Assembly: GCA_016935665.1 (NCBI GenBank)
Contig: JAFGQN010000152.1
Coordinates: forward strand, 1-36,322
Length of the DNA stretch: 36,322 bases
Origin: Deltaproteobacteria bacterium
Lineage (GTDB): Bacteria > Myxococcota_A > Polyangia > JAAYKL01
Reading direction: 5' to 3'
The notes beneath the pieces are model-generated. The model worked only from the letters and a program-made list of their open reading frames with translations. It was not told the DNA's origin and made no database searches. Shown one piece after another: positions 16,304-28,714 of this stretch (its first letter is position 1; each line of letters begins with the position of its first letter). A program made the position numbers and the translations under genes.

Positions 16304-17808
16304 AGTCATTATTACTGAGTATCAGCATTGCATTTTTGATTATATCCTGCTCGTCCGCCAAACCCATTCCGGTGGCGCCCCAGGTGGAAGGGACACAATC
16401 CGATGACGCCAAACCGGTACCAAAACCTCAGGCGGATGTGACAACCTGGCGAAAAATGCCCCCCGAGGTGGGACCCGCGCCAGAAGTGGTGATTCCGGTT
16501 TTCGAACAGACACAGCTGCCCAACGGATTGACAGTGATGGTGGTTCGGCGCGACAGTCTGCCTCTGGTGGACCTGTCGCTGGTTTTGGTAAGCGGCAGTG
16601 CGTCTGAGGAGATTCAAACCCAGGGAATTGCTGACTTAACCTACGAAATGATGCTGGAAGGAGCGGGGGACAGGGACGGCGTGGAATTGGCAGAAGCCTT
16701 TGCGGATCTGGGCAGCCAAATAGGCGTTTTGACCACTGAAGATGGCGCTGCGTTTGAAACAACGCTGCTGAAAAAGAATTTAAATGCCGGTCTTGATTTG
16801 CTGGCCGAGATTGTTATGCAACCCACGTTTAAAAAGAAAGATTTTTTACGCAAGCAAAAAGAGCGCATGGCGGATTTGCAAAGTCTCATGGGCAATCCCA
16901 AATACCTCAGTACCATCGCCACCCCCAAACGGATATACGGCGATTCCCATCCCTATGCCCATCCGGTCATGGGAATGCCAAAGGATGTGTCGGCATTTAA
17001 AAACAGACAACTCAAGGCATTTTATCAAACGCATGTATCGCCAAAGAATGCAGCATTGATATTCGCTGGAGATATTACACTGGATGAAGCGGTTGCGGCA
17101 TCGACAGCCCGGTTGGGCAAGTGGAAGTCCAGCGCAGGTGGCAAAAAAACATCCGCCCAAAACTCCAACGAAACGACTCGGAGGCCATTTTCTCTGGCCA
17201 TTGTCGCGAAACCCGGAATGAATCAAACCATCATTTCCGCCGGGGCAGCGACATTTCCCGCGGGACATCCGGATGAGTGGGCGCTTCGCGTTGCGGTTGA
17301 TGCGTTCGGCGGCATGTTTGGCAGTCGTCTCAACATGAATCTTCGCGAAGAAAAAGGATACACGTACGGGGCACGCGGTCATCTGGATACAATGTTTCTC
17401 GATGGCGCAGCGGTGATTTCCACATCGGTACAGGCAGACGTCACTGGCGCGGCGCTGACCGAAATCATTGCCGAACTCGACGGACTGAAGACGCGTCCCA
17501 TCACCGAGGCGGAATTTCACGCGGCCAAAGAGAACGTTTTAAAATCCGTATCCGGCTGGTTTGAAAGCGTTTCGGGATTGGGGCATGCGGCGCAATCGAT
17601 TTTTGAACGTCATCTGCCTGTAACCCGCTACACCGATATGGTGGCCGCCTACGAAAAACTGACGCTGAACGATGTTCGCCGGGCCGCTGCAACCTATCTG
17701 GAGCGCTCAGTCATGCAGGTGGTTCTGGTGGGAGACCCTTCCGTTATAAAAGAGCAGCTGGCACCACTTTCTCTGGGGACGCCAGAGGTACTGGAACTGG
17801 GACTTTAA
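16300..17808 (+). CDS. M16 family peptidase-like lipoprotein, non-zinc subunit
   Basis: This is a 502-aa M16 homologue with a lipobox signal (SIAFLIISC, Cys at residue 17), then a Pro-rich spacer and two M16 domains. Where the active chain has HxxEH this one reads GIADLTYEMMLEG, so the zinc-binding histidines are missing. It keeps the C-terminal-domain pair R349 and Y354/Y356 in LREEKGYTYGARG, which in two-chain M16 peptidases sits in the inactive partner and completes the active site. It starts in the four-base overlap with the catalytic gene. Its TAA overlaps, tail to tail, the stop of the minus-strand gene at 17805. The predicted complex would be tethered to the envelope through this lipid anchor. 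Confidence 0.9.
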   Translation: MKSLLLSISIAFLIISCSSAKPIPVAPQVEGTQSDDAKPVPKPQADVTTWRKMPPEVGPAPEVVIPVFEQTQLPNGLTVMVVRRDSLPLVDLSLVLVSGSASEEIQTQGIADLTYEMMLEGAGDRDGVELAEAFADLGSQIGVLTTEDGAAFETTLLKKNLNAGLDLLAEIVMQPTFKKKDFLRKQKERMADLQSLMGNPKYLSTIATPKRIYGDSHPYAHPVMGMPKDVSAFKNRQLKAFYQTHVSPKNAALIFAGDITLDEAVAASTARLGKWKSSAGGKKTSAQNSNETTRRPFSLAIVAKPGMNQTIISAGAATFPAGHPDEWALRVAVDAFGGMFGSRLNMNLREEKGYTYGARGHLDTMFLDGAAVISTSVQADVTGAALTEIIAELDGLKTRPITEAEFHAAKENVLKSVSGWFESVSGLGHAAQSIFERHLPVTRYTDMVAAYEKLTLNDVRRAAATYLERSVMQVVLVGDPSVIKEQLAPLSLGTPEVLELGL

Positions 17809-18554
17809 AAGGCTTTTTCCAGGGGGAGATCAAGCTTGTTTTTAGACAGCCCGGTCCACCATGATACGGAGAGTCCAATAAAAATGGAATACACAGAGGT
17901 GGTATCCGCAGGGCCCAGATACACTCCGGCCATCGGCGTCAGCGCCAGACCACCGCTTTTGAGTGGATCTTTGCGACTGCCAGGGAAAAAGTCATATTGC
18001 ACAGTGAGGCCATATGTGGCGCCAAACCGGCCAATCACTTCCGCCATACCGCTTTTTTGCCGTGTGAAATCTGCGAATCCCATCCCCGCCTGAACGCCAA
18101 ACGCCCAAAATCGTGTGGGTTTCAATGTGGCTTCCACACCAAAGTGACCGTGAATCAGGCGTAAATCATTGCCCTTTGCCACGCTGACACCGCCCGCCAG
18201 ACCCAAATCCAGCCAGCGGGTCAATGCTTCGCCCATGCGGAGTTGTCCCCCTCCCGACGGCCATGGTCCAAAGTTTTGCTTCGAATCCACGAACACCAGT
18301 TCAAAAGCGGGCGTCAGGGAAAAGTAATACCCCTGTTTCAACGCCGGTTTTTCGAGTGTCTCGGCCGCCGCGATTGCGGGCAACAGTAACATCACCAGCA
18401 GAACTGCCACCATTGCAGATGCCGTGCCTTCATGACCCTGGGATACCTCGTCATGGCTCACGGTTCGACTACGGCGGGAATCGTTCGTTTCAATTTTGGG
18501 GCCCCATGCGACGTCCTTCGGTTCGAAAACGGGTCTATATTGAATTCGTCTCAT
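17805..18554 (-). CDS. Probable outer-membrane beta-barrel protein, last gene of the TonB operon
   Basis: This is a 249-aa protein. Its body after residue ~65 is a run of alternating short strands (GYYFSLTPAFELVFVD, WLDLGLAGGVSVAKG, FWAFGVQAGMGFADF, YSIFIGLSVSWWTG) ending in KAF, consistent with a small outer-membrane barrel. The start at 18554 overlaps the TonB-receptor stop as TGATG, with GGAG nine to ten bases upstream. This gives an unusually long charged leader of ~47 residues before the hydrophobic signal MVAVLLVMLLLPAIAAA. The true start could instead be Met48 at 18413, although that lacks a good binding site. No specific family is recognised. Position suggests an accessory to the receptor. 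Confidence 0.65.
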   Translation of the reverse strand: MRRIQYRPVFEPKDVAWGPKIETNDSRRSRTVSHDEVSQGHEGTASAMVAVLLVMLLLPAIAAAETLEKPALKQGYYFSLTPAFELVFVDSKQNFGPWPSGGGQLRMGEALTRWLDLGLAGGVSVAKGNDLRLIHGHFGVEATLKPTRFWAFGVQAGMGFADFTRQKSGMAEVIGRFGATYGLTVQYDFFPGSRKDPLKSGGLALTPMAGVYLGPADTTSVYSIFIGLSVSWWTGLSKNKLDLPLEKAF

Positions 18555-21286
18555 CAGAATTCTCCTTTCACGCCAATCACCGGGAGAATAGGCAATCCCT
18601 GCCTCGGGCGACGCTCTGAGGAATCGTAGTTGTACTGGTAGCCGCTCACATTGGGGCTGTTGTAAATATTCTGCACATCGAGATAGGCTGTAAGTATCCA
18701 TCGATCATATATCCAGCGTTTATCGAGACGTAAGTCCGCCTGGTGGAACGTGGGCAGACGTTCGGAGTTGGGTTTGCCATACCTGGGCTCGTAGTAACTG
18801 TCATCCACCGAGTACACCGCGCCCAGACGGGGCGTGGATGGAGAACCGGTCACAATGCGCCAGCGGAACCCCAGCGTCCAGTTTTTGGGCAGGCTGTACG
18901 ACCCGAGCAGCGTCAGGATGTGGGTCTGATCATAGTCGAATCGCCGCCATTCGGTGTCGCCCACATCTTTACGCATAGCTTTGGACAATGTGTAGCTAAT
19001 CCAGCCATTAAAGTTGTTGGCGAACTCGTGCTTCAGCATGACCTCGAGTCCGTATACGCGGCCTTTGCCGCCATTGACATAGTTAACAGGGGACGGGGTG
19101 CCGTCCTGCGCCACGGTGGCATCGGTGCGGCTGACCAGATCATCCATTTCCTTGTAAAAACCGGTCACATCCAGGGTGAGGTATTCCAGCGGGGAATACT
19201 CAAATCCCACCGAGTAGTGCATGGCTTTTTCCAGACCCAAATCCGGATTCCCAAACACTTTGTCGGTTTCATCGAAGGTGGGCTCCTGATGATATGCGCC
19301 GATGCCGCCCTTGATGGTCCATTTGCGCGTAATGTCGAATCGGGAGTTCAACCGGGGCGCCAGGGAGGATTGCCCCACCCTGGAAAAATAATCGAATCGA
19401 ATTCCAGGAACAATGGTCCAGCGGTCGAAGAATCGTGTCTCCAGCTGAGCAAAAGTGCCTACCGAGTGATTGGCGGCGTTGGTACTCTCGGTGTACAGGA
19501 TGTTGCTCAAATCAGGCCGTCCGCCCGCTTCGCCTTCCTTGCCGATTTCCGGAAATTTGATGCGTGCATCGGCAATGCTGTACAGGTAGTCCACCCCGGC
19601 AGCGATACGCACGTTGTCACTGATCCCTACTGAAAACTTGTCGTAGATTTGCGCCACATACGTATTCAGGTCCAGGTAAATCTGATCCCCCAGACCCACA
19701 AAAACTTTATTTCTGCCCGCCGAGGTTTTGAACACATTATTGAACCCGCTCGAAGGTGTGTAGCGATGCTCAAGCACCGTGCGGTAAAATGACGTGGACG
19801 TAGTGCCGCTGGTGGCAGTCAGATCCGGACTGAATTCAGCGGGATTGTCAAACAGCAGTTTCAGTTCGTCATCTGACCCGAAAAAAAATCCGGTAAACTC
19901 ATTGTCTTTGTTGGGACGGTAATTCCCCAGCAACTGATAGTCGTAGTATCTGGGCGCAGTGATGAGATTCACGGATGCATCGTCCGGAACCACGGCATTG
20001 ATGATTCCATCAATGTAACTGCGCCGAAACGCCGCTGCTACAGCCGCTTTCTTACCGATGGGCGCTTCCAGATATACCCCCGAGTCGGCCAGATTGACAT
20101 CCACGTAGCCGCCAATTTTCTGCGGTCGCAACCGTTTCAGTCTCACGTCCACCACACCGCCGGTGGCGCGACCGAATTCCGACGAAAAGTTCCCTGGATA
20201 AAAATCGAGTCCATCCAGCATTCCCAGCGGAATCACGCTGCGCAAACCGCCAAAGTGGTAAATAATGGGAACTTCGACGCCATCCACAAACACCTGTGTA
20301 TCTTCGGGAGAAGAACCGCGCACCACAATGTTGCCTGCTGCGGCGGTGGTTCGGGCAACACCGGGCAGGTTTTTAACCACCGTGAGAACATCCCCAAATG
20401 TGCCGGGGACACGCTCAATCACTTCGGTTTTAAGGGACTTGCGCGAGATTTCCTTGCGCAGTTTTTCACCCTCCACCAGTACGTCGTACGGGTTGTACTC
20501 GCTGCGTTCCACATAGTAGGTGGCCTCGGTCAGTTCGTTCTCGCGGACGTCGTCCCGGGTGCGCAGCGGAAAATACCCTTCCGGTTCCGAAAGCAACATC
20601 CATGTACCGGGCTTGAGATTGTAAAATTCAAATTTACCGTCCGCATCTGTAATGGCTTCATATCCCACCGCCAGATTGCCCATGCCCTTAAAAATAGTCA
20701 CCGTCACACCCACAAGTGGCAGTCTCGTGCCGCGCTCTCTCAGTGTTCCCTTGAAGTTGAGAATGCGTTCCACCTCTTTATCTTCTGCCGGGGCGTTTTG
20801 CACCGTTGAACCGTCATTGTTGGCGTCGGTGTCCATTGTAACCCCCGGGGGCTCAGTTTTTTCGGCCAGCTGGAACACCGTGCGGTAGGTAATGCGCACC
20901 GGAATGGGGAGCCCTCCCTGTGTGGCGGGTTCAAATTCAAACAGATTGGCCGCATCCACTGCCGCTTCGTCAAATCCGTAACCAGCGGGGCTGGCGGGGA
21001 CGACGACCTGGACCCCTTCCACCATGCCTGTCTCATCAATGTCAATCTCCAGAATCACTTCCGACGTGATGCGTTCTTCCAGAGCGCGTGGCGGATATTC
21101 TGCCGGCACTTCCTGTTTTAGAATCGGCGGGACAACCTCCTGGGGCGCTTCGTCACTCGCAGGCGACGCGTCTGTTTGCGCCGATGCGCCATCATCTGTT
21201 TGCGCGCTCACCGACGCCGCCGCCAAAGGGACAATGCCCAATACGTATGCCGCCAATACTACTGCAATCCAGTTATTCCGCATCAT
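18554..21286 (-). CDS. TonB-dependent receptor with N-terminal TonB-C-like and carboxypeptidase-regulatory-like domains
   Basis: This is a 910-aa outer-membrane receptor. Domain order: signal peptide (VVLAAYVLGIVPLAAASVSA); an extra TonB-C-terminal-like domain around 55-145 (QEVPAEYPPRALEERI, VILEIDIDETGMVEGV, AAVDAANLFEFEPA); a carboxypeptidase-regulatory-like beta-sandwich around 175-250 (VGVTVTIFKG, DADGKFEFYNLKPG); the plug around 280-385 (GDVLTVVKNLPGV, IVVRGSSPEDTQVFVDG); then the 22-stranded barrel ending GVKGEF. The ATG at 21286 overlaps the lipoprotein stop (TGATG) behind GAGGAG. This architecture is common in Myxococcota. The substrate cannot be read from the sequence: siderophores, cobalamin, glycans or peptides are all possible, and the regulator upstream makes a cobamide worth testing. 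Confidence 0.93.
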   Translation of the reverse strand: MMRNNWIAVVLAAYVLGIVPLAAASVSAQTDDGASAQTDASPASDEAPQEVVPPILKQEVPAEYPPRALEERITSEVILEIDIDETGMVEGVQVVVPASPAGYGFDEAAVDAANLFEFEPATQGGLPIPVRITYRTVFQLAEKTEPPGVTMDTDANNDGSTVQNAPAEDKEVERILNFKGTLRERGTRLPLVGVTVTIFKGMGNLAVGYEAITDADGKFEFYNLKPGTWMLLSEPEGYFPLRTRDDVRENELTEATYYVERSEYNPYDVLVEGEKLRKEISRKSLKTEVIERVPGTFGDVLTVVKNLPGVARTTAAAGNIVVRGSSPEDTQVFVDGVEVPIIYHFGGLRSVIPLGMLDGLDFYPGNFSSEFGRATGGVVDVRLKRLRPQKIGGYVDVNLADSGVYLEAPIGKKAAVAAAFRRSYIDGIINAVVPDDASVNLITAPRYYDYQLLGNYRPNKDNEFTGFFFGSDDELKLLFDNPAEFSPDLTATSGTTSTSFYRTVLEHRYTPSSGFNNVFKTSAGRNKVFVGLGDQIYLDLNTYVAQIYDKFSVGISDNVRIAAGVDYLYSIADARIKFPEIGKEGEAGGRPDLSNILYTESTNAANHSVGTFAQLETRFFDRWTIVPGIRFDYFSRVGQSSLAPRLNSRFDITRKWTIKGGIGAYHQEPTFDETDKVFGNPDLGLEKAMHYSVGFEYSPLEYLTLDVTGFYKEMDDLVSRTDATVAQDGTPSPVNYVNGGKGRVYGLEVMLKHEFANNFNGWISYTLSKAMRKDVGDTEWRRFDYDQTHILTLLGSYSLPKNWTLGFRWRIVTGSPSTPRLGAVYSVDDSYYEPRYGKPNSERLPTFHQADLRLDKRWIYDRWILTAYLDVQNIYNSPNVSGYQYNYDSSERRPRQGLPILPVIGVKGEF

Positions 21287-22335
21287 CAACGCTCCTCAAT
21301 CCGAATGGTGCGACTGGTCCACGACACGCCACCTCGACCGTCCTGCAACACCACATGAATTGTGGCTTTTCCGTTCACCTCGTCTGCGCGCGGCAGCCAC
21401 CACGTGTTAAGCATCAACTGTTCAAAAGGCGTTTTTGCGGGAATATAGCTGGTGCGTCCAAACTCCGTGTCTCCACCAGTGATGAACCAGGTGATAAACA
21501 GATTTTCGTATTTCATCACCGGTTCCCCTGTTTCGATGGCCAGGGTCTCGTAGGTTTCAGAGGCGGCCTTTGGCACTGTGACGCGCAAATCGATTCTGTC
21601 TTTGGGGGCAAAAGTCATTGGCGAGTCATTCACCAGTTCAACCAGGCCGTTTTCTATGCGTTGATACATCTGTTCCACTCCTGGATTCTGATTGGGCACG
21701 ATGTCGCTGTTTAAAATCAGGTTCATCTGCTTCACGGCTGTCATGGTCTGCTCTTTAGCAGTCACATCCAGGCGAATGGTGCTCACCAGTTTGCCTTCGC
21801 AATCGGGAAGAATCGGCAGTGTATCGCCCAGTTGATTCACCACCTGGTCGCACGCCAGCTGAAGCACGTCTTCACCAATAACGTACGGGAATGACGCGTT
21901 TGGCCCATTTCCAAGGTTAAACAGCGGCACGTCCGGGAGCAGCACGGTGGGCACACCCGTATTCTGCGATATAAGTGACAAAAGCATCTCTTCGGTCACG
22001 GGACACTCATGACCGTTGAGAGACGTTGTGGCAATAGGGCACCAACTCCACTTGTACTGGACGTCTTCACCGTCCGGCGCGTCCACCAGCGCATTGATTG
22101 TGCCGGTTTCGCCTGGGATTAGTTCCGCGGGTTCCACCTGTATGGCCAGAACCCTAAGCTTTGTCACATCTGTAAATTTTTCAAATTCCTCATTGCAGGC
22201 TGCGGTGATGAGCAGCATAAAAAGCCCAGCAATGGACAGCAGCCGATTCCCCTGGGCCTTTTGTGCCACACGAACCTTACCGCGCGATTCGTTATTATCT
22301 GCTTTACCGCCTGTGCGGGTGTGGTTGGTCAACAT
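21286..22335 (-). CDS. Unrecognised envelope lipoprotein of the TonB operon
   Basis: This is a 349-aa protein with a lipobox (LLSIAGLFMLLITAAC, Cys near residue 47) after a long polar leader. The start at 22335 is chosen because AGGAGG lies five bases upstream; the longer frame to 22356 lacks one. The mature part begins NEEFEKFTDVTKLRVLAIQVEPAEL and has beta-sandwich-like segments (GTINALVDAPDGEDVQYKWSW), resembling Ig-like or PKD-like folds seen in myxobacterial lipoproteins placed next to TonB receptors. The C-terminal part has another such module ending in VVLQDGRGGVSWTSRTIRI. No named family is assigned. Tight coupling to the receptor gene (TGATG) suggests a partner that caps or presents substrate at the outer membrane. 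Confidence 0.7.
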   Translation of the reverse strand: MLTNHTRTGGKADNNESRGKVRVAQKAQGNRLLSIAGLFMLLITAACNEEFEKFTDVTKLRVLAIQVEPAELIPGETGTINALVDAPDGEDVQYKWSWCPIATTSLNGHECPVTEEMLLSLISQNTGVPTVLLPDVPLFNLGNGPNASFPYVIGEDVLQLACDQVVNQLGDTLPILPDCEGKLVSTIRLDVTAKEQTMTAVKQMNLILNSDIVPNQNPGVEQMYQRIENGLVELVNDSPMTFAPKDRIDLRVTVPKAASETYETLAIETGEPVMKYENLFITWFITGGDTEFGRTSYIPAKTPFEQLMLNTWWLPRADEVNGKATIHVVLQDGRGGVSWTSRTIRIEER

Positions 22336-22366
22336 GTGAACCTCCTGTGGCGACATGCGTGTTTTG

Positions 22367-23350
22367 CTATGCGCCTTTCATTCGAAACCGGTACGTATAC
22401 TTAAGGTTGTATTCCACTGCCTCGCCGTCTCTTTGGGCTGGACTGTACAGTTCTTTTTTGGCGGCCTTCAGTGCGGCTTCATCAAACTCCCTGTATCCGG
22501 AGCTTTTCAGGATGCGCACCTTTTGCACCGCCCCCTTTTCGTCAATCACAATCAGAACCACCACATTCCCCTCAATGCCCCTGGACTTGAGTTCCGGTGG
22601 ATACGACAAGTCCGCCGATGAGAGCCGTTTGGGCCGCGTGAAATTGCTGGTGACTGTTGGAATGAACGTTGCTTTTCTGTTTACCGTCGCAGTACCATTG
22701 CCGCCTCCAGGGCCGGACAGCTTACCTTTGCTCAGTTTCTCAATCTTTTCTTTTGTTTGTACCGCCCCGGTGGCGCCCATGCGCGTATTGCCCACCGCGT
22801 AGGCGGGACCTGTGCCACCTGTCACGGTTGACGACATGGTGATGCCGACCACCGCGCGTTTCCGTGGTTGCGGTTCGGGCTCCTTTTCAGCGCGATTCAC
22901 CGGATCTGCTTTGGCCATGCGGATGCGTCGCGGTTTTATTTCCTTTGGTGGCGTCACTTCCGGCATGGGCTCCAGGGCCGCTGTTTCCTCGGGAATGTCC
23001 GCCTTCGCCTCCGCCTCGGGTTCCGGCTGTTTCTCCGGTCGTTTTTCCTGTGGCGGTTCGACCACGCGAAAAACCACCTTATCTTCGTTTGTTTGCACCT
23101 TCGTGTGCGCGCCAAACGACATGAGGATAAAGGTCAGGGTTCCATGAAACAGAATTGCTGCCAGCGCGAATCCGCCACCGCGCAACCAGGCTGGGACAGA
23201 CGCTGCAGATGGCTTTGAAACATCCGATTGAACCGGTTTCACCACTCGTGTGGCAAGACGCGCCCTGTTTTCATGTCTTTTATTCGCGCGTTTTTCCGCA
23301 TACGTTGCCACATGAGAATATGCATTTTGCGGGTTTGAATTAACTTTCAT
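22367..23350 (-). CDS. tonB: TonB-family energy transducer
   Basis: This is a 327-aa TonB homologue. A ~54-residue cytoplasmic extension is followed by the single transmembrane helix (GGGFALAAILFHGTLTFILMS). The periplasmic linker is rich in Pro, Glu and Lys (EKRPEKQPEPEAEAK, MPEVTPPKEIKPRR). The C-terminal TonB domain, from about 235, shows DLSYPPELKSRGIEGNVVV, IVIDEKGAVQKVRI and EFDEAALKAAKK. It couples the proton-motive force harvested by ExbB-ExbD to the outer-membrane receptor encoded downstream. GAGGAG precedes the ATG at 23350. Both intergenic gaps (30 and 31 bases) fit a single operon. This is clearly a dedicated rather than housekeeping copy, since its cognate receptor is in the same transcript. 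Confidence 0.93.
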   Translation of the reverse strand: MKVNSNPQNAYSHVATYAEKRANKRHENRARLATRVVKPVQSDVSKPSAASVPAWLRGGGFALAAILFHGTLTFILMSFGAHTKVQTNEDKVVFRVVEPPQEKRPEKQPEPEAEAKADIPEETAALEPMPEVTPPKEIKPRRIRMAKADPVNRAEKEPEPQPRKRAVVGITMSSTVTGGTGPAYAVGNTRMGATGAVQTKEKIEKLSKGKLSGPGGGNGTATVNRKATFIPTVTSNFTRPKRLSSADLSYPPELKSRGIEGNVVVLIVIDEKGAVQKVRILKSSGYREFDEAALKAAKKELYSPAQRDGEAVEYNLKYTYRFRMKGA

Positions 23351-23380: not shown

Positions 23381-23803
23381 TTATTTTGACGCCAGTTGCT
23401 TTCGTTCAATGTTCAGTGCGAAACCGTTGACCCCCGCACCTTTCACCATGTCCACCACACCGATCACATCCCCATAGGGTAATCCTGTATCCGCAGAGAT
23501 GACGGCCTGTATTTTGGGGCTTTCCTTGACTCGACGTTCAATCACATCTCGCGCCCGTTCAAACGACATCTCCTGTCCGTCCACAAAGAGTTCTTTTTCA
23601 AGCGTGTACACAAGGTTTACTGTCGCAGTGACATCCGACCCTGCTGCTGCCGCTTTTGGTAAATCCACTTTTATAGCCGCTTTCACTATCGCTGTGGATG
23701 TCACCATGAATATAATCAGCAGTACCAGTACAATATCAACGAACGGAATAATGTTGATTTGAGCGATAACATCGTCATCTCTTTTTCCAATAGGTCCAGC
23801 CAT
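23381..23803 (-). CDS. exbD: ExbD/TolR-type biopolymer transport protein
   Basis: This is a 140-aa inner-membrane protein with one transmembrane helix (NIIPFVDIVLVLLIIFMVTS) carrying the functionally essential Asp (D23 from the chosen start), followed by a periplasmic domain (IKVDLPKAAAAGSDV and, near the end, PYGDVIGVVDMVKGAGV) typical of ExbD/TolR. I use the ATG at 23803 (MAGPIGK), with AAGGAG seven bases upstream and lying inside the end of exbB. The longer frame to 23833 would overlap exbB without a signal. Only one base separates the exbB stop from this start, so the subunits are coupled. Together with ExbB it forms the proton-driven motor for TonB. Confidence 0.94.
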   Translation of the reverse strand: MAGPIGKRDDDVIAQINIIPFVDIVLVLLIIFMVTSTAIVKAAIKVDLPKAAAAGSDVTATVNLVYTLEKELFVDGQEMSFERARDVIERRVKESPKIQAVISADTGLPYGDVIGVVDMVKGAGVNGFALNIERKQLASK

Positions 23804-23804
23804 C

Positions 23805-24473
23805 TTATCGCTCCTTTGTTGTTGCTGCTTCAACCGGGGCTGCCTTCAAATTTGCCGTCAACACAGATGCCAGCAGCCCAAGGTTCTCTGAAAACTTCTT
23901 CACTTTGGACTTGAATACGTTGAATGCGACCACTGCCGGGATTGCCACCAGCAATCCAACCGCCGTGGCGATAAGCGCTTCTGCAATTCCCGCCATCACA
24001 GAGGAACTGGCTTCAGACATATTCCCTGCAAGTTCATTGAATGCGCGGATGATTCCCAGCACGGTTCCAAACAATCCGATGAACGGTGCATTGGAGGCCA
24101 CCGTAGCCAGCACATTCAACCGTTTGTCGTACCGTGCCTGTTCCTTGCCGGTAGCTCCAGCCAGCAGATCTTCGACTGCCTCGGGTCCCAGCGCATGGCT
24201 TTTAAGTCCATACAGCACCACATTGGTTTCGAGGCTGTCATAACGGGACAGTAATTTGGCCGCAGCGTCGAAATCGCCACTGGTGAGTAAGGTCGACAGT
24301 TCGTCTTTTAACTTGTCCACATCCACTGTGTGACGGCGGTAAAAAATAAAGCGTTCCATCATGATTGCCACCGATACGACCGAAAGACCGATTAGCAGCC
24401 AGAGCACCCATTCCGCCTGAAACACAGGCAATCCCAGCAAGGTGGCGATAATTCCGGTGGATTGTTCATGCAT
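23805..24473 (-). CDS. exbB: ExbB/TolQ-type (MotA/TolQ/ExbB) proton channel protein
   Basis: This is a 222-aa inner-membrane protein with the family's three helices: LWLLIGLSVVSVAIMMERFIF near the N-terminus, and the pair starting NAPFIGLFGTVLGIIRAFNEL and ALIATAVGLLVAIPAVVAFN. The motif GLFGTVLGI and the conserved Thr-rich third helix identify the family. The start at 24473 (MHEQS) is preceded by AGGGAGA. The longer frame to 24608 would translate through a stretch of inverted repeats and is rejected. This is the first gene of the six-gene TonB operon and is divergent from the B12-binding MerR regulator, separated by 246 bases of highly structured DNA. Confidence 0.94.
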   Translation of the reverse strand: MHEQSTGIIATLLGLPVFQAEWVLWLLIGLSVVSVAIMMERFIFYRRHTVDVDKLKDELSTLLTSGDFDAAAKLLSRYDSLETNVVLYGLKSHALGPEAVEDLLAGATGKEQARYDKRLNVLATVASNAPFIGLFGTVLGIIRAFNELAGNMSEASSSVMAGIAEALIATAVGLLVAIPAVVAFNVFKSKVKKFSENLGLLASVLTANLKAAPVEAATTKER

Positions 24474-24584: not shown

Positions 24585-24607
24585 TGTCACCAAATCATGC
24601 GGTGACA
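24585..24607. promoter_or_regulatory. Operator-like dyad TGTCACC-N9-GGTGACA
   Basis: A perfect seven-base dyad with a nine-base spacer lies between divergent exbB and the MerR/B12 regulator. A related TGACA occurs again in the regulator promoter at 24677-24681. MerR-type dimers bind such dyads; assignment to the neighbouring regulator is inference. Confidence 0.45.
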
Positions 24608-24675
24608 AATAAATGAGTAATCATTGAATAGATTATGGTCAAATAAAATGGAATAAAATTATTCAGTGATTATAT

Positions 24676-24704
24676 TTGACAAAGTGTTGATGAGTTTTTA
24701 TAAA
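24676..24704 (+). promoter_or_regulatory. Near-consensus sigma70 promoter of the regulator gene
   Basis: TTGACA (24676-24681), a 17-base spacer and TATAAA (24699-24704). The expected transcription start near 24711 leaves a leader of only about nine bases before the ATG at 24720. A regulator bound across this site would autorepress. Confidence 0.55.
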
Positions 24705-24719
24705 AAAGGAACAAATGCT

Positions 24720-25625
24720 ATGAATAAAATTGAAGCTAAAAACAGGCACATTAGTATTGGTGGACTCGCCGCAGGGAGTGGCGTCCCGGTGGAAACCATT
24801 CGAAACTGGGAGCTTCGCTACGGGTTCCCAGAGCCATTGCGTCTGGATTCCGGACATCGACGATATCATATGAATCTCATCAGCCGGTTGCGGAAAATAA
24901 AGTCATTGGTTGATGCGGGGTATAAGCCGTCTTTCGCTGTGAACCTGGATGAACAGGAAATTGACCAGCTATTGCTTTCCGCCTCCGCGGAGGGACATAT
25001 TAATGAAATAGAGAATGAGGATTCTTTGACGGCGGTGCGCAGATGGATGATGCTGGCCCAGGCTATGAATGTGGTGGAGCTCAATCGAATACTGGCCCGA
25101 GATTGGAATCGTGTGGGCGCGAGGCGATTTATTTTTGAGTTGGCGCTTCCGTTTTTGCGGGAAATTGGAAACAGATGGGAAACGGGGGGGTTCTCGGTGG
25201 CTCACGAGCATTTTGCCAGTGAAGTGCTGCAGACGTTTTTCGCATCCCGATGGAGGCCTCTGATCAGCAGCCATCACCACCGCAAACTGGTGCTGGCCAA
25301 TCAGGAAGGGGACCTGCATAGTCTGGGATTGCAGATGGCCGCAGTGCTTTCGGCGCTACATAATGTGGAGCCTCTTTTCCTCGGACCCAACACGCCACTG
25401 CAGGATATTATCATTGCGGCCAAAGAACAGAAAGCCAGTGCGGTTGTTATTGGGCTGTCTTCTGTGTCAGATCCCGAAAAATCCGCTCATTTCCTCGAAA
25501 CGCTGCAGCAGCGGCTTCTGGGCGTCCGGCTGGCGTTCGGTGGCAATGACAAACTCCCCACCATGTCAAACGTGGAGTACATCGCGTCACTGGAAGATTT
25601 TGACGCGTGGTGCCGGAATATTTAG
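24720..25625 (+). CDS. MerR-family regulator with B12-binding domain, CarH/LitR-like
   Basis: This is a 301-aa regulator. Residues ~10-75 form a MerR winged helix (ISIGGLAAGSGVPVETIRNWE, GHRRY). Residues ~100-175 are the helical cobalamin cap, with W153-x9-E163-H164, the CarH/LitR signature in which Trp caps the cobalamin and His is the upper ligand. Residues ~188-300 are the B12-binding Rossmann domain with D198-x-H200-x-x-G203 supplying the lower ligand, then FLGPNTPLQDII and VVIGLSS. CarH proteins bind adenosylcobalamin, form tetramers that repress in the dark, and fall apart in light. Start: ATG at 24720; the GTG at 24666 would precede the promoter. It is divergent from the exbB operon, so it likely controls itself and perhaps that operon. 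A light-independent B12 sensor of the CarA type is the alternative. Confidence 0.9.
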   Translation: MNKIEAKNRHISIGGLAAGSGVPVETIRNWELRYGFPEPLRLDSGHRRYHMNLISRLRKIKSLVDAGYKPSFAVNLDEQEIDQLLLSASAEGHINEIENEDSLTAVRRWMMLAQAMNVVELNRILARDWNRVGARRFIFELALPFLREIGNRWETGGFSVAHEHFASEVLQTFFASRWRPLISSHHHRKLVLANQEGDLHSLGLQMAAVLSALHNVEPLFLGPNTPLQDIIIAAKEQKASAVVIGLSSVSDPEKSAHFLETLQQRLLGVRLAFGGNDKLPTMSNVEYIASLEDFDAWCRNI

Positions 25626-26128: not shown

Positions 26129-28714
26129 TCAGAAAGGGGAAATCCACTGCCAGCCGATTTCCAGAAAACCATTTAAAACTGTGGAACCGTTGCTGCTCAT
26201 CGGTTTAAAAAAATCGGGGAACCACTCCATGCCGCCCTGGACACGGACCCGTTCGTAGAATGTCAGTGCCAAAAAGACCTGCCCCACGGGCGCCGAACAG
26301 TCGCGGCTGTCGATGACAAACTGATCCATGTCGCATGCGCCTTTGGAAAAGTGATCACCGGTACTGAGCTGGTAGCCCACTCTAAATCCCAGACGTCCCT
26401 GAATGACCGGAGATGACCACGATGTTTTTTCCAGCTCCAGTCCTAAAAGCGGTGTCATTGCAAATACATTGGGGGCGGGGCTCATCAATTCGTAGAGGCC
26501 TTTGGCCTGCAAACCCAGGTTGAATCGAATCCACCTTGCAGGCGCATACCGACCTGCCGCGCTTAATCCCACCTCCGCGCCTTTTCCCGCACCCACATAA
26601 ATGATAACCTGCGGTGGCTGATATTTAAAAAAGTTAAGCCCTGGCTTTCCAAGCACACGAATGGCCACGCTCTCCGCCTGAGGGAGTTTCTTGGCGTAAT
26701 CGTCCAGGGCGCCCGCCAGAATCTCCCTAATCCGCGACATGGCCTGCCACGCCTCCTGACGACTGAGTCCCAGATCGTTGAACCAGAAATCGTACTGTTC
26801 CAGCAGGCGCATGGTGTATTCGAACTTCGTCTCGTCGCCTTTGCGGACCCAGTCCTTTTTAAAATCACCGTGTCGAATGGGTTGCACCATCGGCGGCAAC
26901 TTGCCTTTCATCCCCTGTATACAGTGCGGGTGGTCAATGGTCTCATCAAGTTTGAGCACACTGCATGTGTCGTACAAACGGTTGAGAGAAATCTGCAGCA
27001 GGATGCGGAAATCCTCCAGATGATCGCCATTGCACGCAGAGGCCAGTTGCTGCTCCCCGTCAAAATATGCGCGCATACAATAGTATGGACTCCAGGAGGC
27101 TTTCTTCGTCGCGGATTCGGTGTGTTCCGGATAGCGAATCCGTATTCCGGACAACTTTTCCATATGGAAGGTGGAAAGAACGTCGTTTTGCAGGTACTGG
27201 TGCGCATCGTGCATACCCATATAAAAATCGTATATTCGGAATTTCTCCTCAAAAAAACCGAAGAAATTAGCCAGAAGTCCACTGGCGGTGGGAAAGCTTG
27301 TCTCTGTGAGAAAAATGCGCTGTTTCACTTCCGGATGGTGATCCAGCAGCACGTAAATTTCCTTCGCCTGAGCGGATTTGACAAATCCCTGAGAATACGA
27401 TCCAAAGGTTGGAAACAATGCTTCAATTCGACGATGCACTGCCTCGGGCTTGTACGTGGGGTATGATTCGTTCAGCGCGTCGAGGTACAGAAAAAAAAAG
27501 TTGTCGGGCAGATTTCCCTCATTACTGTTGGGTATTTCCCGCCATTGGTATTTGTCATTCACGGCTTCCAGACCCGCCTTGCCGATTCGATATGCCAGAC
27601 CCAGCGGATTTCTGTCGAACATGGAGCCATCGACAAACAACTCCCGGTACTCCGGGGTATCGCATTTATGGATGAGATATTCATCCGAACTGGACGACTC
27701 ATGGTTACTTTCTTCGCCCTTGGCCGACGTCATGCAAAACGCCAATTCCTGGGCGGGAAATGCCAGAGGGAACGCGGATGAGGCAAACATCAACTGTTTA
27801 ATGACGCCAAAGTTGGTAACGCTCTTTTGGCTCCCTTCCTTTCCAGGGGTCACAAACGGCAGCAGCGGCTGTGGCGTACCGTGGGCGCGGTCCACGTAGT
27901 TGGTCACCATGGGCAGCTTTCCCTTGCCTCGGCCCTTGATGCGGAAAACAAATTTCTCTTCCTGTCTTGGAACTGAAAAATCACCACTGACACCCACCTT
28001 GCGACTCTTGACGCGTGTCGCCGTGGCGCCCACCACCATATCGAGAGATTCCTCGAGACCTTTGTTCCATTCGGATTCCATTTGATTGGCCAGTGTTTCA
28101 AATATTTTTCTTGACGAAAGCGCCAGTGGCGGCGCATCGGCCACATCGAGCAGCTCGGTGATACTCATGTCGGTCCAGATGCGATAAAAAAGACTTTCGT
28201 CCGGTGAACTGATGAGCTCGTTCCCGAGCGAAATGACCGAAATGAGAGAGTTGATGGTTCCCGCAGAAGACCCCGTTACCACTCGCGGCGCAAACAACTC
28301 CGGATTTAATTTTGCCACTTCCACCAGGTAATACAGATAACCTGCCTGATACGCCCCCAAAGAAACACCGCCGCTGGTTGTCAGCGACAGGTTTACCGGC
28401 AATGCGGGGGGCGACATGTTTTCCTGCGGAACGGGGGCAACGGTGCTCGGCGTTGACAATGTGTCATCCGGGGTGCCGGTTTCATCACTGGTATCGATGT
28501 CGGTATCTTTTTCGGCGGAATCGTTGCTGGAATCCATGCCTGTGGCGTTCGATACAGCACGTCTGTCATCGTCTGCCCCATTCGTTTTCCCGCTGTTTGA
28601 GGGCGCCTTTTTGCCCGAAGCCCCAAAAGAGAAAATACAGAGCAGCGCGACCAGCATCCCGCGCCACCAGATAATCTTCCATGTGTTTGTTTTCCCTCTG
28701 TACATCCGTTTCAT
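26129..28714 (-). CDS. Patatin-like phospholipase with probable C-terminal outer-membrane barrel
   Basis: This is an 861-aa protein. It has an N-terminal signal (WWRGMLVALLCIFSFGASG) and a low-complexity Ser/Thr/Asp linker to about 105. The patatin domain has the oxyanion loop GGVSLGAYQAG at 115-125, nucleophile S150 in GSSAG and D362 of the dyad in VDGSMFDRNP. The dyad is complete, so lipase activity is likely. The last ~170 residues (from GAGKGAEVGLSAAGRYAP) alternate like amphipathic strands and end WQWISPF, consistent with a small beta-barrel. This recalls type Vd patatin autotransporters such as PlpD, but no POTRA domain is recognised between passenger and barrel. No Lgt-type lipobox is seen. 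Divergent from the MscS gene. Confidence 0.88.
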   Translation of the reverse strand: MKRMYRGKTNTWKIIWWRGMLVALLCIFSFGASGKKAPSNSGKTNGADDDRRAVSNATGMDSSNDSAEKDTDIDTSDETGTPDDTLSTPSTVAPVPQENMSPPALPVNLSLTTSGGVSLGAYQAGYLYYLVEVAKLNPELFAPRVVTGSSAGTINSLISVISLGNELISSPDESLFYRIWTDMSITELLDVADAPPLALSSRKIFETLANQMESEWNKGLEESLDMVVGATATRVKSRKVGVSGDFSVPRQEEKFVFRIKGRGKGKLPMVTNYVDRAHGTPQPLLPFVTPGKEGSQKSVTNFGVIKQLMFASSAFPLAFPAQELAFCMTSAKGEESNHESSSSDEYLIHKCDTPEYRELFVDGSMFDRNPLGLAYRIGKAGLEAVNDKYQWREIPNSNEGNLPDNFFFLYLDALNESYPTYKPEAVHRRIEALFPTFGSYSQGFVKSAQAKEIYVLLDHHPEVKQRIFLTETSFPTASGLLANFFGFFEEKFRIYDFYMGMHDAHQYLQNDVLSTFHMEKLSGIRIRYPEHTESATKKASWSPYYCMRAYFDGEQQLASACNGDHLEDFRILLQISLNRLYDTCSVLKLDETIDHPHCIQGMKGKLPPMVQPIRHGDFKKDWVRKGDETKFEYTMRLLEQYDFWFNDLGLSRQEAWQAMSRIREILAGALDDYAKKLPQAESVAIRVLGKPGLNFFKYQPPQVIIYVGAGKGAEVGLSAAGRYAPARWIRFNLGLQAKGLYELMSPAPNVFAMTPLLGLELEKTSWSSPVIQGRLGFRVGYQLSTGDHFSKGACDMDQFVIDSRDCSAPVGQVFLALTFYERVRVQGGMEWFPDFFKPMSSNGSTVLNGFLEIGWQWISPF

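Follow-up and report, generated by a model that had tools for sequence, protein, structure and literature searches.

A CarH/LitR-type regulator encoded divergently from a TonB uptake operon and a candidate operator between them in one bacterial family

Introduction

The main role described for CarH/LitR proteins is in carotenoid production induced by light (PMC9758184). The class I members, including those of Thermus thermophilus (PDB 5C8D-F), Myxococcus, and Bacillus megaterium, share a MerR helix-turn-helix (HTH), a two-part cobalamin domain with a Wx9EH motif and a lower axial His, the residues GxxW, EH, GxxH, and GxxxP, which make up the light-sensing SignatureFinder set (PMC11796333), and tandem 11-bp direct repeats as operators. 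The published operators are tandem nnnnTnnACAn repeats that overlap promoter elements (PMC9304148). In Thermus CarH, His132, at the position following the Trp (W+1), is the second cobalt ligand in the light, and the H132A variant mostly stays tetrameric in light, while the same paper notes an earlier study that saw disassembly of H132A (PMC10442372). A His at W+1 is present in "many" myxobacterial CarH proteins (PMC9304148). CtMerR of Chloracidobacterium (PDB 8JBS/8JBT), a cobalamin-binding MerR protein reported to be light-responsive, has Arg at W+1 (PMC11796333).

A MerR-type regulator that acts on TonB-dependent uptake genes is MliR of Bizionia argentinensis, which has no effector domain and no B12 link and is an activator of iron genes (PMC9478572). 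In the open-access literature that names both CarH and TonB systems, we found no report of CarH control of, or a link to, such systems.

Here, we describe a CarH/LitR-type gene in a stretch of 36,322 nucleotides, the whole of which is referred to as the window. The source genome has a size of 8.16 Mb in 249 contigs and is an estimated 95% complete; it was compared with relatives of the same family, which are metagenome-assembled genomes named Deltaproteobacteria or Myxococcota. The regulator has the architecture of CarH/LitR class I but differs from it in that its predicted target is a TonB uptake operon rather than carotenoid genes, that the core of its candidate operator reads TnnTCA instead of TnnACA, and that its recognition helix contains an Asn (RNWE), while the W+1 His and the Arg-Asp interface pair are missing.

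Results

The regulator is a CarH/LitR-type protein with a conserved cobalamin signature

The regulator gene has the following position.

24720 to 25625, plus strand: CarH/LitR-type regulator gene, 301 aa, with domains, ligand motifs, and predicted fold as given below

The protein contains a MerR HTH at residues 12-69 (PF13411 MerR_1, E=1.8e-9), a four-helix B12-binding_2 domain at residues 130-174 (PF02607, 35.3 bits, over the cut-off), and a Rossmann-type B12-binding domain at residues 189-275 (PF02310), which at 25.1 bits scored below the curated cut-off of 32.1. Its closest solved relative in sequence searches is Thermus CarH/LitR (E=1.5e-23). Using the AlphaFold model (mean pLDDT 86), Foldseek gave full-length Thermus CarH structures as the top match (E about 1e-14), followed by CtMerR, which is about 24% identical in sequence and, like the window regulator, is without the W+1 His. 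The score against the NCBIfam CarH equivalog NF052513 was 102.5 bits, below the equivalog cut-off of 400, and the regulator is therefore a relative rather than a close orthologue of the members of that model. The recognition helix is of the RxWERRY type and reads RNWELRY, with one Arg changed to Leu, while some orthologues have ERRY. Based on sequence and fold comparison, the winged HTH, the two-domain B12 module, and the motifs of class I are all present, and the product of 24720-25625 is a CarH/LitR-type protein.

Both cobalamin ligand motifs recorded in the first-pass annotation, W153-x9-E163-H164 and D198-x-H200-x-x-G203, were located in the ORF (Wx9EH at residues 153-164; DxHxxG at 198-203). 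Of the downstream part of the D/ExHx2G...SxT/V...GG motif, SSV lies at 247, after a gap of 43 residues (textbook value 41), and GG at 274. Among eight orthologues, including the window protein, all nine signature residues (G150, W153, E163, H164, G197, H200, G203, G222, and P226) belong to the 73 of 301 positions that do not vary, so that the four SignatureFinder elements (G150/W153, E163/H164, G197/H200, and G222/P226) are complete in 8/8 proteins. The Trp and the EH pair were also found in 80/80 kept relatives. Because of this invariance in the orthologues and the wider relatives, the motifs are not a product of chance. A gene for an adenosyltransferase that forms adenosylcobalamin (AdoCbl) is present in all eight genomes with the regulator (CarH+ genomes). 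Judged from these residues, the regulator likely binds AdoCbl.

We consider it very improbable that the protein is a B12-independent regulator of the CarA kind, or an activator instead of a repressor. Myxococcus CarA retains a B12 motif and yet functions without B12, but it is without the Trp of Wx9EH (PMC9304148), which is invariant in the eight orthologues. Moreover, the pattern expected of lost B12 contact is displayed by a different protein of the source genome, a paralogue on contig C158 without the W, the EH, and the lower His. The activator half of this alternative is considered with the operator below.

The regulator gene is divergent from a complete TonB operon

Six genes are encoded on the minus strand, divergently from the regulator gene.

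23805 to 24473, minus strand: exbB (MotA/TolQ/ExbB family; PF01618, E=2.7e-34)
23381 to 23803, minus strand: exbD (ExbD/TolR family; PF02472, E=1.1e-25), start placed from orthologues (MAGPIGK...)
22367 to 23350, minus strand: tonB (TonB C-terminal domain; PF03544, E=6.9e-21)
21286 to 22356, minus strand: lipoprotein-like gene, with a conserved Cys54 after a hydrophobic stretch and a mature part that is largely beta-strand
18554 to 21289, minus strand: TonB-dependent receptor, with N-terminal TonB_C and CarboxypepD_reg-like domains, plug, and barrel
17805 to 18701, minus strand: final gene conserved in the operon; the product is probably a small outer-membrane barrel, and the true start is probably internal

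Alignment with the orthologues suggests that exbD probably starts at the ATG at 23803 rather than at the TTG at 23833. The Pfam matches for ExbB, ExbD, and TonB_C were all over the cut-off, and the three genes lie in one operon with the receptor, as in an ExbB-ExbD-TonB energy system; the last gene had no match in Pfam. The divergent exbB-exbD-tonB-receptor arrangement that had been read from the sequence before is thus confirmed by Pfam for all four genes, and it is extended by the lipoprotein gene and the small outer-membrane-type gene. On the far side of carH, the window encodes an 861-aa patatin-like phospholipase (26129-28714, minus strand), which is not kept there in relatives.

The arrangement is conserved in the family

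Orthologues of the regulator with 42-79% identity were identified in seven other genomes of the same family. All seven (8/8 with the window) are divergent from exbB-exbD, followed by tonB, the lipoprotein gene, the receptor, and the small gene up to the contig limits. The far flank of carH is different in each family genome, and synteny is confined to the exbB side. Six family genomes are without the regulator. Four of these (G003, G006, G012, and G013) are also without a close receptor orthologue and have only paralogues that are ~40% identical; in the other two (G008 and G011), a close receptor is present and the contigs break before exbB and the carH side. Regulator and receptor therefore co-occur in eight genomes and are jointly absent from four (p = 0.002 by exact count), a value to be read with care since three of the four negatives belong to one genus. 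None of the next relatives outside the family adjoins this TonB operon, which indicates that the pairing of carH with the TonB genes is family-specific.

That the two transcription units are neighbors by descent only, with no regulation between them, is scarcely credible. All eight genomes come from one family, as this explanation would have it, but the proteins have diverged down to 42% identity while synteny has been kept on the exbB side alone, regulator and receptor are missing together from four genomes, and the intergenic DNA contains a footprint, unique in each genome, that is conserved far beyond its surroundings.

The shared intergenic region contains 11-bp repeats over a putative exbB promoter

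The carH-exbB intergenic regions in the eight genomes range from 157 to 585 bp and are variable except for a shared block near exbB. The following elements were assigned in the window.

24602 to 24643, no strand assigned: conserved footprint between exbB and carH, the single strong match in each CarH+ genome
24625 to 24630, minus strand: putative operator box 1, TATTCA (TnnTCA), in 11-bp register
24614 to 24619, minus strand: putative operator box 2, TACTCA, 11 bp from box 1, at the place where a -10 element with 17-bp spacing from the exbB -35 would fall
24603 to 24608, minus strand: putative operator box 3, TTGTCA, 11 bp from box 2
24637 to 24642, minus strand: putative exbB -35, TTGACC; the plus-strand GTCAA is invariant in 8/8
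24660 to 24672, plus strand: inverted partner of boxes 1 and 2, TATTCAGTGATTA, 12/13 complementary to 24618-24630, adjoining the carH promoter
24676 to 24704, plus strand: putative carH promoter, TTGACA-17-TATAAA, with the -35 at 24676 and the -10 at 24699

The conservation of the inverted partner is visible in the alignment of the intergenic regions. The putative carH promoter was not flagged by the automated promoter scan because the scan demands a T as the last base of the -10 element.

Three TnnTCA boxes in exact 11-bp register occur in 6/8 regions versus 0.0025/8 expected from dinucleotide shuffles, a figure that overstates independence because the core was picked after inspection of the data and the sequences are related by descent. 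When spacings from 7 to 17 bp were compared, no such pattern was found besides that at 11 bp, the exception being a single region with three boxes spaced by 10 bp. In contrast to the TnnTCA core, which is one base off the published TnnACA, the 11-bp register was predicted by the published CarH operators (PMC9304148). Searched with a 44-bp profile of the footprint, each of the eight CarH+ genomes yielded a single strong site, and no match in family genomes that lack the regulator was stronger than E = 0.07; as the strong hits are the training sequences, only their uniqueness is informative.

The candidate boxes overlap putative promoter elements, as in CarH repressors, and it is on this point that an activator is disfavored, even though many MerR proteins activate (PMC9478572). 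Taken together, the divergence in 8/8 genomes, the conserved footprint with 11-bp repeats in the shared intergenic DNA, and its single occurrence per genome strongly support the link between regulator and operon that the first-pass annotation had drawn from adjacency.

The position that carries the light-state His is occupied by Glu

The residue at W+1 is Glu154 in the window protein, Glu in 7/8 orthologues, Ser in one, and never His. The Arg176-Asp201 interface pair of Thermus CarH is replaced by Leu199-Asn224 (numbering by alignment). These two Thermus-type details, the W+1 His and the Arg-Asp salt bridge of the dimer, vary among members of the CarH/LitR family and do not define it. With the light-state His replaced by Glu, release by light may differ or fail. 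On the other hand, CtMerR, reported to be light-responsive, has Arg at this position, so the wider family can do without the His, and Glu at W+1 is common among Bacillota relatives. From the residues present, light release by the regulator is plausible.

These residues bear on the alternative that the protein is a plain AdoCbl sensor on the TonB divergon, for which the signal would be B12 status rather than light and photolysis may not dissolve the oligomer physiologically. The consistent lack of a W+1 His in the clade and the largely tetrameric state of Thermus H132A CarH in light (PMC10442372) are in agreement with such a sensor, as are the pervasive B12 control in the source genome, with seven cobalamin riboswitches, and the distribution of photolyase, which is encoded in only 3/8 CarH+ genomes, the source genome included, so that exposure to light is not evident for all hosts. 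Conversely, the two residues by which photoreceptors hold the adenosyl group, W153 and E163, are invariant, and the Arg of CtMerR, a protein reported to be light-responsive (PMC11796333), and the frequent Glu of Bacillota relatives also speak against it. We judge this alternative unlikely, though serious enough to keep in view.

Neither carotenoid synthesis nor cobamide import is the favored function

The initial observation that no carotenoid genes lie in the window was strengthened, as phytoene synthase was not found in the whole source genome; it was also not found in 5/8 CarH+ genomes. Among the matches listed for the operator profile, none falls at any of the three crt loci present in CarH+ genomes. 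A carotenoid target elsewhere in the genome was rejected on these two grounds.

The earlier suggestion that the operon takes up cobamides has been weakened. Two of the seven riboswitches in the source genome (contigs C152 and C183) precede other pairs of a TonB receptor and a lipoprotein, which adjoin cobT/cobS/cobQ and cobN-type genes; cobT was assigned by model and the remaining cobalamin genes by eye. These pairs, each with a 417-aa lipoprotein (L169:6904-10356 and L171:2540-6002), resemble BtuB/BtuG pairs. Like the window operon, for which this is predicted, they combine a TonB-dependent receptor with a lipoprotein under B12-linked control, but they are riboswitch-run and lie by cobalamin genes. 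The window operon, in turn, encodes its own exbB-exbD-tonB, and both its lipoprotein and its type of receptor are different. A search for cobalamin riboswitches in the window found none. Against the B12 receptor model TIGR01779 (cut-off 599.7), the window receptor scored 37 bits and the riboswitch-linked receptors 76-80 bits; since the latter fall short as well, a score below the cut-off says little by itself in this lineage. Structure comparison of the lipoprotein model returned nothing informative, BtuG-like or otherwise. The receptor's own matches were rejected as a guide to the substrate because they are too generic, with weak ferric-enterobactin and colicin I receptor matches that span just parts of the barrel or plug.

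With two riboswitch-controlled receptor operons beside cobalamin genes, import of cobamide by the window operon is possible but not favored. For CarH to stand in for a riboswitch in feedback control of cobamide import would make sense in that the end product should be a ligand of the regulator itself, and the receptor does match the B12 receptor model, albeit generically; the riboswitch-controlled operons, the lack of a riboswitch in the window, the receptor score, and the lipoprotein comparison argue against it. We regard this explanation as improbable, and the substrate of the operon is probably not a cobamide.

Several other cobalamin-associated loci were observed. Stand-alone cobalamin-binding proteins are encoded in two genomes, one with W-x9-EH at L035:9349-10646 (plus strand) and one with a W-x9-EH-like stretch at L198:2822-4577 (minus strand). 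A second gene that looks sensor-like (PAS-like by eye) comes after each, and the proteins, which have no DNA-binding domain, are candidate B12 sensors. Cobalamin riboswitches are also located directly upstream of a gene for a CbpB-type peptide-modifying radical SAM enzyme (contig C80, L170:8822-10231, minus strand) and of nrdD, for the anaerobic ribonucleotide reductase (contig C128, L168:7022-9277, minus strand).

The TonB-linked proteins form one clade with a distinct recognition helix

Maximum-likelihood analysis placed the eight TonB-linked proteins together in a single group (support 92/67; recovered in 94% of bootstrap trees), whose sister, on a long branch, is the degenerate paralogue of the source genome. 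A neighboring group includes a CarH beside phytoene synthase (L237), a CarH beside a CrtI-like gene (L234), both neighbors having been named by eye from their translations, and, in another family, a CarH gene with a classic operator of three TnnACA repeats beside it (L235). The second residue of RxWE is Asn in 9/9 family proteins (RNWE); 108 other proteins have A, M, T, V, or I there, with Asn in 0/108. Because the nearest relatives outside the family include CarH linked to phytoene synthase and the source genome is without phytoene synthase, retargeting is likely; the clade would have derived from a carotenoid-type CarH of its class, presumably Polyangia, via a change of target. The Asn in the predicted recognition helix and the TnnTCA core of the candidate boxes fit a change of target accompanied by a changed DNA preference.

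The sister paralogue (L034:9748-10704, minus strand) sits between two cobalamin riboswitches, upstream of an acetolactate-synthase-like gene and metE, for the B12-independent methionine synthase. It was rejected as a second working CarH, as all B12 contacts are lost and there is no operator match. In G226, of the same class, a CarH gene is divergent from a gene for a fasciclin-like lipoprotein, with four 11-bp repeats between them, three of which are TnnACA (L235:1069-3189), and a second CarH copy adjoins a CrtI-like gene. CarH relatives at L232, L236, and L238 lie by sigma-factor-like and B12-binding radical SAM-like genes (by eye), an arrangement kept in G193, G194, and G195.

Discussion

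The TonB operon appears to be a new and conserved target for a known type of regulator. We find it just probable that the regulator acts as a CarH/LitR-type repressor that depends on AdoCbl, controls its own gene, and is dedicated to the shared carH/exbB intergenic region as its sole target. In the dark and with enough AdoCbl, the regulator would form an oligomer, which would bind at two places, to the three TnnTCA repeats that cover the exbB promoter and to the single inverted box next to the carH -35. Occupancy of both sites would block the exbB and carH promoters and give rise to repression as well as autoregulation. Light, by breaking the Co-C bond, or shortage of AdoCbl would release the DNA, and ExbB-ExbD-TonB, the lipoprotein, and the receptor would be switched on.

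A wider reading, which we hold tentatively as quite possible though short of probable, is that this is a photoreceptor that has moved fully out of carotenogenesis, that gates TonB uptake by light and AdoCbl with a co-evolved Asn helix and TnnTCA core, and that is released by light without bis-His ligation. Since the light-state His is absent, the system would test whether light release needs such ligation. If the proposed regulation is correct, the family would also provide a natural case in which operator and recognition helix changed together, and with a TonB operon as the only target of a conserved CarH it would show that nutrient uptake can be gated by light or B12.
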